Shown piece after piece: positions 53,781 through 55,679 of a DNA stretch of 64,000 bases; the first letter of the stretch is position 1; each line of letters opens with the position of its first letter. The position numbers and the translations under genes were made by a program. The notes below the pieces were generated by a model. The model did not search any database and was not told the origin of the DNA. It saw only the letters and a list, made by a program, of their open reading frames with translations. The stretch is from Bifidobacterium asteroides (lineage in GTDB: Bacteria > Actinomycetota > Actinomycetes > Actinomycetales > Bifidobacteriaceae): NCBI RefSeq assembly GCF_003202695.1, contig NZ_QGLL01000010.1, positions 1 to 64,000 on the forward strand, read 5' to 3'.

Positions 53781-53854
53781 GCCTCCTTAGCTCAGTTGGC
53801 CAGAGCAGCCGCCTTGTAAGCGGCAGGTCGTCAGTTCGACTCTGACAGGAGGCT
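53781..53854 (+). tRNA. tRNA-Thr (anticodon TGT)
   Basis: This folds as a standard cloverleaf. The acceptor GCCTCCT (53781-53787) pairs with AGGAGGC (53847-53853). The D arm is GCTC...AGC. The anticodon stem GCCGC/GCGGC encloses loop CTTGTAA with anticodon TGT, which reads ACA. The T arm is GTCAG-TTCGACT-CTGAC. The discriminator base is T; CCA is not encoded. The terminal CCA must be added by a nucleotidyltransferase such as that at 58199. Confidence 0.96.
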
Positions 53855-53920
53855 CTACGCTAGAAATGAACCAGCAAACCCATCTATTCAGCTTTGTCTC
53901 CAGGCGGGCTATAATAATGG

Positions 53921-54148
53921 ATATTACCTGGATAATTACCTGGATAATTGCAAATACTTCCCTCGAGTAAGTCATTTCGGAGGCTTGTTCTCCGAAGTAC
54001 GAACGGAGCCTTTTCCCCAACCAACTCCGTTCGTATCCGAGGACGGGATTATTCCCCTTCATTCCCGTCCTCTTGACGTTGACCTGTCGGCACAAGGCCC
54101 GGGTCTCAAAGAGCCGACCGGCCATTGATGGTCGGTCGGCTCTTTTAT
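53921..54148 (+). ncRNA. Candidate noncoding RNA with own promoter and terminator, two C-rich hairpin loops
   Basis: A perfect -10 TATAAT (53910-53915) with TTCAGC 17 bases upstream (53887-53892) would start a transcript near 53921. The RNA opens with a tandem repeat ATTACCTGGATA x2 (53923-53946), then hairpin A TTCGGAG/CTCCGAA (53976-53996). Hairpin B is TACGAACGGAG/CTCCGTTCGTA (53998-54035, 11 bp, loop with CCCC), and hairpin C is GAGGACGGGA/TCCCGTCCTC (54039-54072, 10 bp, loop with CCCC). It ends at an intrinsic terminator (54108-54148). No ORF with an SD fits. Two consecutive stems with C-rich loops recall the actinobacterial 6C RNA, but identity is unproven. Confidence 0.65.
54108..54148 (+). 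terminator. Strong Rho-independent terminator
   Basis: AAAGAGCCGACCG (54108-54120) pairs with CGGTCGGCTCTTT, followed by TATT; inner CCAT/ATGG extends the stem. It ends the candidate noncoding RNA, 120 bases before the rpfB-like gene. Confidence 0.9.
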
Positions 54149-54269
54149 TGCGGCCCATCGGCAACAAATGTGGATATTTGCCCGACCTTGTTGATTGTGC
54201 GGCCTCGCTCCATGCCCGCGCCGCTAAAATTGCCTGGTACAGACAAGGCAGGAACGGGGAGGCGAGCGC

Positions 54270-55679
54270 ATGGCCAGACGCTGGACACCGCGGCGTTTCG
54301 TCGTGCTCAGAAGAATCCGCGTGGTCTCCTGTGCCCTCCTGGTTGTTCTGGCCATGGTCCTGACCTTCGGCATCACCGCGCGCAAGAGCGTGGCGCTGAG
54401 CGTCAACGGGAAGACCAAAATGGTGACCACCTACGCCTACAGCGTGGACGGTCTGCTGCGCCAGCAGGGAGTCAAGGTCAAAACCCACGACCTGGTCGAT
54501 TCCACCTCCGGAGGCCAGCTGCGCAACCATGCTGCGGTCACTGTGCGCTCCGCCTATCAGACCACCATCGTGATCCAGGGCCAGCGGGTGCCCTTCTGGA
54601 CCACGGCCGCCAGCATGGACCAGCTGCTGGGATTCTTCGAGGAGAACCGCAAACAGGCCATGAAGGTCACCGTGGATGTGGGCAACGTCTATAACCAGCT
54701 GACCGGCGGTCTGGTCATCAACCAGGCGGGGCCGGTCACGGTCGTAGCCGACGGGAAGACCTCGGTGGCCCCTGATGGCAAGCTCCCAGCCGCCTCCATT
54801 TTGGATTCCAAGGGCATCGTGCTGGGCAAGGAGGACCGGGTCAGCGTGGAGCATGACCAGGGCGCCACTGTGCTGCGGGTCCAACGGGTCACCCACGGCA
54901 ACACCCAAAGGACGATCCCCATATCCTTCTCCACGAGGACCGTGGTCGACCCGAGCCTGGCGCCCGGTCAGACCCAGGTGCGGCAGGCGGGCGTAGCCGG
55001 TCAACGCCTGCAGACCATCCAGGTCACCTACGTGGATGGACAGGCTGAATCAGAGCAGGTGGTCAAAGAGGAGACCGTAGCCATGCCAGTGGATCAGGTA
55101 GTGGCCGTCGGTCCCGACAAGCCAAAGGAGGGACAGAACAGCGGACAGCAGTCCCAGGACACAGAGAAGAACTCCCAGCAGGCGCAGGAGACCCCCTCTC
55201 AGAGCCCTTCGTCCAGCCAGGATTCGCAGTCGCCATCGACACCAGCCCCTACGCCAGCACAGACCGCTCAGCCGAAGCCGCCAAGCACACCAGCTCCAAC
55301 TAAGCCCGATAACAATCCAGCTCCGTCGCCAGCGCCAAGTCCATCTCCTGGCGGTCTTTGGCATGCGGAACCTGGTGTAGCCCAGGCCTACGCCGGGGGC
55401 GCCGCCGCCCAGCGCGGATGGACAGGTTCGCAATTCGATGATCTAGTGGCACTCTGGACCAAGGAGTCAAACTGGCTCTGGCATGCCCAGAACCCCAATT
55501 CGCCCGCCTACGGCATTCCCCAGGCTAACCCTGGCTCCAGGATGGCGCTATTCGGAGCCAACTGGCGTGACGATGCTGCTGTCCAGATTGATTGGGGACT
55601 CGACTACATCAGCAAATCATATGGGGATCCCAGCACGGCCTGGCGCCTCTGGAACGGACGTCATCCACACTGGTACTGA
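54270..55679 (+). CDS. RpfB-like cell-wall protein: DUF348 repeats, G5 domain, lytic-transglycosylase-like C-terminus
   Basis: This 469-residue exported protein has an N-terminal signal/anchor helix (about 18-38), three ubiquitin-like DUF348 segments (about 40-210), a G5 domain (about 210-285; RTVVDPSLAPGQTQVRQAGV), a Pro/Ser/Gln-rich linker (290-375), and a C-terminal muramidase/transglycosylase-like domain (about 385-469; FDDLVALWTKESNWLWHAQN, YGIPQANPGSRMA). The architecture is that of actinobacterial resuscitation-promoting factor RpfB, with the bifidobacterial-type catalytic domain ending WNGRHPHWY. Catalytic Glu is likely in TKESNW. GGGAGG lies upstream of the ATG. It is followed by ksgA and ispE, the same order as in many actinobacteria. 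Confidence 0.9.
   Translation: MARRWTPRRFVVLRRIRVVSCALLVVLAMVLTFGITARKSVALSVNGKTKMVTTYAYSVDGLLRQQGVKVKTHDLVDSTSGGQLRNHAAVTVRSAYQTTIVIQGQRVPFWTTAASMDQLLGFFEENRKQAMKVTVDVGNVYNQLTGGLVINQAGPVTVVADGKTSVAPDGKLPAASILDSKGIVLGKEDRVSVEHDQGATVLRVQRVTHGNTQRTIPISFSTRTVVDPSLAPGQTQVRQAGVAGQRLQTIQVTYVDGQAESEQVVKEETVAMPVDQVVAVGPDKPKEGQNSGQQSQDTEKNSQQAQETPSQSPSSSQDSQSPSTPAPTPAQTAQPKPPSTPAPTKPDNNPAPSPAPSPSPGGLWHAEPGVAQAYAGGAAAQRGWTGSQFDDLVALWTKESNWLWHAQNPNSPAYGIPQANPGSRMALFGANWRDDAAVQIDWGLDYISKSYGDPSTAWRLWNGRHPHWY

Follow-up and report, generated by a model that had tools for sequence, protein, structure and literature searches.

What is encoded between the tRNA-Thr gene and the rpfB-like gene of Bifidobacterium asteroides? 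This interval lies in the DNA analyzed here, the first 64,000 nucleotides (nt) of contig NZ_QGLL01000010.1 (RefSeq assembly GCF_003202695.1), which is referred to as the window. The original prediction for it was a structured noncoding RNA that extends from a promoter to a terminator and bears a pair of C-rich hairpin loops, similar to the 6C RNA of actinobacteria (B11 in mycobacteria). Comparison of related genomes supports this original prediction in its main part and indicates that the element is a structured RNA that is maintained by compensatory changes and strongly conserved in the family Bifidobacteriaceae. The likeness to 6C RNA held as an analogy but not as membership of that family. 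Most probably, the element is an independently transcribed, trans-acting small RNA (sRNA), whose loops would block G-rich Shine–Dalgarno sites, as those of sX13 and B11/6C do.

Conservation and Covariation of the RNA

The conserved core was present in 21 of the 27 genomes of the window's genus by BLASTN. A covariance model of 8 sequences (R1) matched 89 of 189 Bifidobacteriaceae genomes, and a model of 41 sequences (R2) matched 151 of them, with full coverage of the window's genus (27 of 27) and 108 of the 112 genomes in the largest genus of the family; by arithmetic, the 18 misses not named individually all fall outside this largest genus. Mostly one R2 match was obtained per matching genome, with one to three extra, weaker matches in ten genomes of the window's genus, and a second match in G056, G086, and G102. 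In the window, the core was the sole R2 match at an expect value (E) up to 10. Two contigs were seen to carry two RNA copies each, one of B. miconis (NZ_JAHBBH010000018.1; L168 and L171) and C10 of G086, on which the copies lie on opposite strands about 42 kilobases (kb) apart.

Beyond these genomes, a degenerate exact pattern was run over 84,980 named genomes and returned 56 stretches, all titled Bifidobacterium, Gardnerella, Bombiscardovia, or Bifidobacteriaceae. Outside the family, R2 gave weak matches only (best E 0.0067) on 198 genomes of the order and 148 of the class, searched with Infernal's stricter filters, and the viral contigs searched for the RNA gave no match. One R1 match (L096, 23.7 bits) was false and was dropped, and later counts were made on 58 main copies. 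The parts of the RNA, followed by its neighbors, are:

53957–54073, + strand: whole conserved core, matched by R2 at 108.1 bits (E 8.3e-25)
53957–53971, + strand: 5′ box CUUCCCUCGAGUAAG, 15 nt, conserved in the genus alignment
53976–53996, + strand: hairpin P1, 8 pairs, one of them G-U; loop without a C run in the window's clade
53998–54035, + strand: hairpin P2, 11 base pairs (bp); loop CCUUUUCCCCAACCAA
54039–54072, + strand: hairpin P3, 10 bp; loop UUAUUCCCCUUCAU
54108–54146, + strand: separate, predicted intrinsic terminator of the window's clade, hairpin 54108–54145 and then U
53926–53937 and 53938–53949, + strand: tandem 12-mer ACCTGGATAATT, two copies, a private duplication by the sequence and the relatives' alignment
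53910–53915, + strand: −10 box TATAAT, perfect by sequence, kept in close relatives
53887–53892, + strand: −35-like TTCAGC, weak by sequence (3/6 consensus matches, spacer 17)
53781–53855, + strand: tRNA-Thr(UGU), by ARAGORN; usual upstream neighbor
54270–55679, + strand: rpfB-like gene, by Pfam G5 and DUF348; usual downstream neighbor, outside the RNA

Covariation was assessed on 41 of the 64 aligned sequences. The omitted ones were near-duplicates, such as L002, L005, L008, L010, L012, L013, L063, L073, and L089, and truncated, poorly fitting or weak sequences (L016, L061, L069, L077, L081, L085–L088, L090, L091, L093, L095, and L096). An alignment across bifidobacteria had been proposed as a check for compensatory changes, and it revealed changes on both sides of 22 of the 29 base pairs, with the stems conserved. 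In detail, changes on both sides were found for 8/8 pairs of P1, 10/11 pairs of P2, and 4/10 pairs of P3, the last with three invariant pairs. Pairing cells amounted to 95.4% for the real structure vs. 49–61% for slid structures; the alignment was fitted to R1 and thus favors the structure, but the gap to the slid versions is still large.

The loops contrast with the stems. In P2, CCCCAACC was invariant in 16 genus sequences, and the P3 loop CCCCUUC was present in all 58 main copies; in the window's clade, these conserved C-rich loops read UUUCCCCAACCA (P2) and AUUCCCCUUCAU (P3). In the bee-gut clade of the window, the C run of the P1 loop has been lost; in many other Bifidobacterium this loop is C-rich (CUUCCCCCAAC). 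When motifs were simply counted, the stretch between the box and P3 had two or more C-run motifs in 42 of the 58 main copies, one in 12, and none in 4; three C-loop hairpins are thus present in many Bifidobacterium. The 5′ box, CUyGAGUAAG, was invariant in the 16 aligned genus sequences and more variable across the family.

Fold, Promoter, and Terminator of the RNA

The fold of the interval had a z-score of −7.2, and none of 200 shuffles was equally stable. The three hairpins of the original prediction were present, with CCCC loops on the 11- and 10-bp ones, and P1 includes the G-U pair. Hairpins whose arms are 9 bp or longer and whose loops span 8–18 nt number eight in the whole window, and CCCC loops occur in two of them, which are P2 and P3; among 1000 dinucleotide shuffles of the interval, none yielded even one CCCC-loop hairpin of that size. 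Two further pairings, that of the box with the 3′ tail, seen in the L050 fold, and the closing helix GUCA/UGAC of the window fold, are not claimed; the helix is not kept in L014.

The terminator had been called strong. A generic scan found one terminator-like site vs. a shuffle mean of 1.0, which is not above chance by itself; the assignment therefore rests on stem length and on the alignment of close relatives, in which the stem sequence varies and the stem itself is kept. A U-tract directly follows P3 in 49 of the 58 main copies examined, showing P3 itself as the predicted intrinsic terminator in most of them. The window's clade has no U-tract behind P3 and carries a separate terminator hairpin in its place.

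At the 5′ side, the consensus TATAAT was confirmed and is retained in the alignment of close relatives, with transcription predicted to start near 53922. The −35 element, previously regarded as reasonable, is weaker than described, and the TATAAT/TTCAGC promoter was not among the sites listed by a promoter scan of the window. The 12-base repeat at the presumed 5′ end is real but private to the window genome, since the close relatives aligned have a single copy. A coding role was rejected, because no open reading frame fits, as had been stated (the interval's list holds short or antisense frames only), and 1-nt indels occur in the P2 loop between relatives. ARAGORN and Pfam G5 agreed with the position given between tRNA-Thr and an rpfB-like gene.

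Separately, a near-palindromic motif, AATGTGGATATTT, was observed at 54167–54179 of the window, upstream of rpfB. It was matched in 13 of 13 window-genus loci with rpfB in the set and in 0 of 45 other main loci, and is possibly an operator of rpfB.

Copies at the 3′ Ends of Surface-Protein Genes

A pattern of the box plus a C-loop hairpin gave 114 matches in 18 of the 27 genus genomes, compared with one match of the reversed-pattern control; fifteen of these 114 matches correspond to the tRNA-Thr locus itself, and one was counted twice. On contig C2, the window genome carries an exact copy and another in which the box is longer by one base. Twenty-four extra copies were examined; 21 overlap or closely follow the stop codon of a gene with an LPXTG-type-looking C-terminus, and no LPXTG-like gene end was found beside the other three (L196, L214, and L216). 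Two 3′-end copies folded with z-scores of −4.5 and −4.9. RCC1 repeats and Listeria-Bacteroides repeats were found in the two full proteins scanned, and RCC1 repeats in the partial protein beside the window genome's own copies. This recurrence of the box and C-loop hairpins at the 3′ ends of RCC1-repeat, LPXTG-like genes in bee-gut species was unexpected. These RCC1 proteins are already known and number 7–24 per genome (PMC4449606), with 19 copies in PRL2011 (PMC3447821).

When the search was extended to the family, matches outside the window's genus resembled the main copy, except an odd one in G186, with the limit that this family-wide 3′-copy pattern misses some copy types. In the window genome (G000:C2:15000-24478, L221), two C-loop elements were seen, of which one follows a surface-protein gene that looks broken, and the RNA element still folds.

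G-Rich Leaders and Candidate Targets

The fetched stretches held 50 3′-end copies, and a simple rule based on signal peptides gave a gene start for 34 of them, of which three or more look wrong. A GGGG lies within 32 nt upstream of the start in 28 of these 34 genes; likewise 28 have a run of 11–15 G soon after the start, and 2 more a 6-G run. In L223–L241 (bee-gut Bifidobacterium; e.g., L225 and L231), the poly-G tracts lie about 110–125 nt after the start. Since only 5 of the 26 long-run genes are in frame with the far stop at the box, the tracts suggest phase variation of the surface proteins. The words phase, frameshift, and homopolymer are absent from the main text of PMC4449606.

The P3 loop contains CCCCUUCA, to which the leader sequence UGAAGGGG is complementary; the leader sequence GUUGGGGAA likewise complements UUCCCCAAC of the P2 loop. 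The 11 surface-protein leaders of one genome were compared with a background of 166 genes, taken from a relative's 240 kb, which replaced a redundant first one of 87 genes, mostly one orthologous locus. Nine leaders were matched or beaten by at most 6/166 other genes at the first start, and at most 10/166 were as good or better at any early start; GAAGGGG occurred near a start in three of the 166. We infer that, in the bee-gut species, the candidate targets include surface-protein messenger RNAs (mRNAs) whose leaders carry UGAAGGGG or GUUGGGGAA.

The comparative analyses thus show a conserved structure, conserved C-rich loops, a predicted terminator, and separability from the neighboring genes. 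If the RNA is a trans-acting sRNA, as is probable, it would be transcribed from the TATAAT at 53910, and its loops would pair with AAGGGG/UUGGGGAA-type G-rich stretches at or near ribosome-binding sites. Translation would be blocked by this pairing, and the two or three loops would be redundant in their action.

Several points weigh against this explanation. The other two leaders were ordinary, with 18 and 23 of the 166 background genes as good or better, and when the loop flanks were permuted, the real mean was still reached by 28 of 500 sets. The target test is only suggestive; the leaders are paralogs of one another, and G-rich leaders in part represent ordinary Shine–Dalgarno sequences. 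Both the transcript and its targets are predictions from sequence. Further, the RNA is family-wide, whereas this analysis encountered the surface proteins in the bee-gut clade only, so other targets must exist. In the available part of PMC5746004, the sRNA table of the B. breve UCC2003 transcriptome gives only housekeeping RNAs and riboswitches. The available part of a B. animalis study gives no RNA at this place (PMC4338058), which says little, because regions holding tRNA genes were removed there.

A wider and rather doubtful proposal is that the free RNA and the 3′-end copies form one regulatory system for RCC1-repeat surface proteins in bee-gut bifidobacteria. Here the loops would act both in trans, as part of the RNA made at the tRNA-Thr locus, and in cis, as part of each gene's own 3′ end, by pairing with the G4 Shine–Dalgarno leaders and the 11–15-nt poly-G tracts of the same mRNAs, so that translation would be gated by pairing and separately by slippage. 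The family-wide RNA would then be ancestral, and the 3′-end elements would have been copied from it.

Alternative Explanations

The usual position of the RNA raises the question of whether it belongs to one of its neighbors. On the same strand, rpfB is downstream in 52 of 59 loci compared, and in Mycobacterium tuberculosis an RNA switch is the 5′ leader of rpfB-ksgA-ispE (PMC6009663), so a cis-acting leader or attenuator of this operon was considered. The seven remaining loci include L052 and L071, which end too soon, and the false match L096. In L084, L085, and L091, the RNA occupies another site, and the 5 kb there holds no rpfB; the RNA of L093, which is a weaker match and has no C-run motifs before P3, is divergent from rpfB. 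As these four exceptions break the rule of a co-oriented position always upstream of rpfB, the RNA is regarded as a unit of its own and the identity of rpfB leader was rejected. Where the rpfB N-terminus aligns, the rpfB match starts about 80 to 640 nt from the RNA, with the terminator between them, and the mycobacterial switch is reported to be limited to some mycobacteria (PMC6009663). A leader function is very unlikely on these grounds. Equally slight is the chance that the RNA is a stable 3′ fragment processed from the trailer of the tRNA-Thr transcript. This would fit the weak −35 and the tRNA-Thr gene, which immediately precedes the RNA in all 21 loci of one set and in 43 of another 49, but the RNA has its own TATAAT, kept in close relatives, and no tRNA was found near it in L084, L085, L091, L093, or L095. 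A TANN(A/T)T also lies 32–47 nt before the box in 22 of the 58 main copies, by an eye count that carries no chance estimate.

Likeness to 6C RNA raises a different alternative, a divergent 6C ortholog that has drifted beyond the Rfam model, which is improbable though less so than the two above. The RNA is actinobacterial and has tandem C-loop hairpins, and it could fill the 6C niche in this family, where 6C was above threshold in 0 of 189 genomes (five subthreshold) vs. 64 of 148 class genomes. However, the covariance search that had been proposed as a check gave no match to Rfam 6C (RF01066, gathering score 47 bits) at E up to 10, either in 8 kb around the RNA or in the interval alone. Membership of 6C was rejected, since the Rfam threshold was not reached by this RNA in tests of the window, six relatives, and whole genomes; one weak match was obtained in the reverse direction. 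In detail, R2 gave four weak matches at E up to 10 on 12 6C loci (best 16.0 bits); the match in L104 (14.6 bits, E 0.019) is on the 6C and its strand, and that in L100 only touches the 6C end, so that R2 covers no 6C in the other 11 loci. No intermediate better than E 0.0067 was found in the order or class. By definition, a 6C RNA has two hairpins with at least six C in their loops; the present RNA has two C-loop hairpins, and its C runs do not exceed 4 in the window but reach 8 in some relatives' loops. The neighborhood also differs: 6C is one gene from Ms1 (PMC6582537), the Bifidobacterium Ms1 region is too short for Ms1 (PMC9130861), and the present RNA is flanked by tRNA-Thr and rpfB. The 3′-end copies bear on a somewhat better, yet still unlikely, explanation, that an RNA-binding protein recognizes the box and C-rich loops and is titrated off the 3′-end copies by the free RNA. 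The genus conserves the box CUUCnCnCGnGUAAG, for which no pairing partner is well supported, and its recurrence with C-loop hairpins at gene 3′ ends far exceeds the reversed control. Against this, the 3′-end copies were found only in the window's genus (by one family-wide pattern) while the free RNA is family-wide, and no candidate protein was identified.

A trans-acting sRNA is thus the preferred explanation. In the literature searched, no bifidobacterial trans-acting sRNA with a worked-out mechanism turned up, and further papers are possible. The RNA is a natural first candidate for one, because it is widespread, has mostly one strong match per genome, usually keeps a fixed address, and is under structural selection. 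If confirmed, it would offer a way to study the possible control of large surface-protein families in bee-gut symbionts.

Comparison With Known RNAs

Around the RNA and in relatives' loci, a scan with Rfam 15 found no family over its gathering score except tRNA. Tandem apical CCCC-loop hairpins followed by a terminator, as in sX13 and B11, were found in the RNA. With 6C/B11 it shares the actinobacterial host, two C-loop hairpins, and the predicted pairing with G-tracts by mutually replaceable loops; in B11, mutation of either C-rich loop alone still allows repression of a target whose 5′ untranslated region has a six-G tract (PMC10470900). The bifidobacterial RNA differs in having no Rfam match, in the length of its C runs (4 in the window), in its locus, in the additional hairpin P1, and in the predicted service of P3 as terminator in most copies examined.

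Another element was observed at G023:C2:191952-192025 (L023), a subthreshold 6C match (32.7 bits, gathering score 47) with a z-score of −6.1 and hairpins that carry UUCCCCCAA and CUUCCCCCCA stretches; it is perhaps another C-loop RNA of that species.

Like the M. tuberculosis switch, the RNA is structured, lies upstream of rpfB-ksgA-ispE, and has a predicted intrinsic terminator, but it is separable from rpfB. The alphaproteobacterial alpha-r7 (RF02342) and CcsR1 (RF02791) also have C-rich loops on tandem hairpins; L050 scored 19.8 and 19.7 bits with them, far under the gathering scores (60 and 65.3). These bacteria are distant, and the resemblance may be one of composition only. The tlpB site of the Helicobacter pylori sRNA HPnc5490 is a length-variable poly-G. 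HPnc5490 has a UCCCCCU loop and a G-rich site in its tlpB target (PMC3771888), which is similar to the case here, whereas the bifidobacterial poly-G lies inside the coding sequence of paralogous surface proteins, and pairing with it is predicted.

As judged by description rather than by sequence, sX13 of Xanthomonas is the closest functional parallel found. It has three stable stems with 4C, 4C, and 5C loops behind a short unstructured 5′ part, and represses mRNAs with GGGG near the start (PMC3771888). Both RNAs have three hairpins with apical C-rich loops, and the bifidobacterial one has a conserved 5′ box and 3′-end copies besides. If the proposed function is true, this parallel would be a further sign that riboregulation by C-rich loops has arisen more than once.
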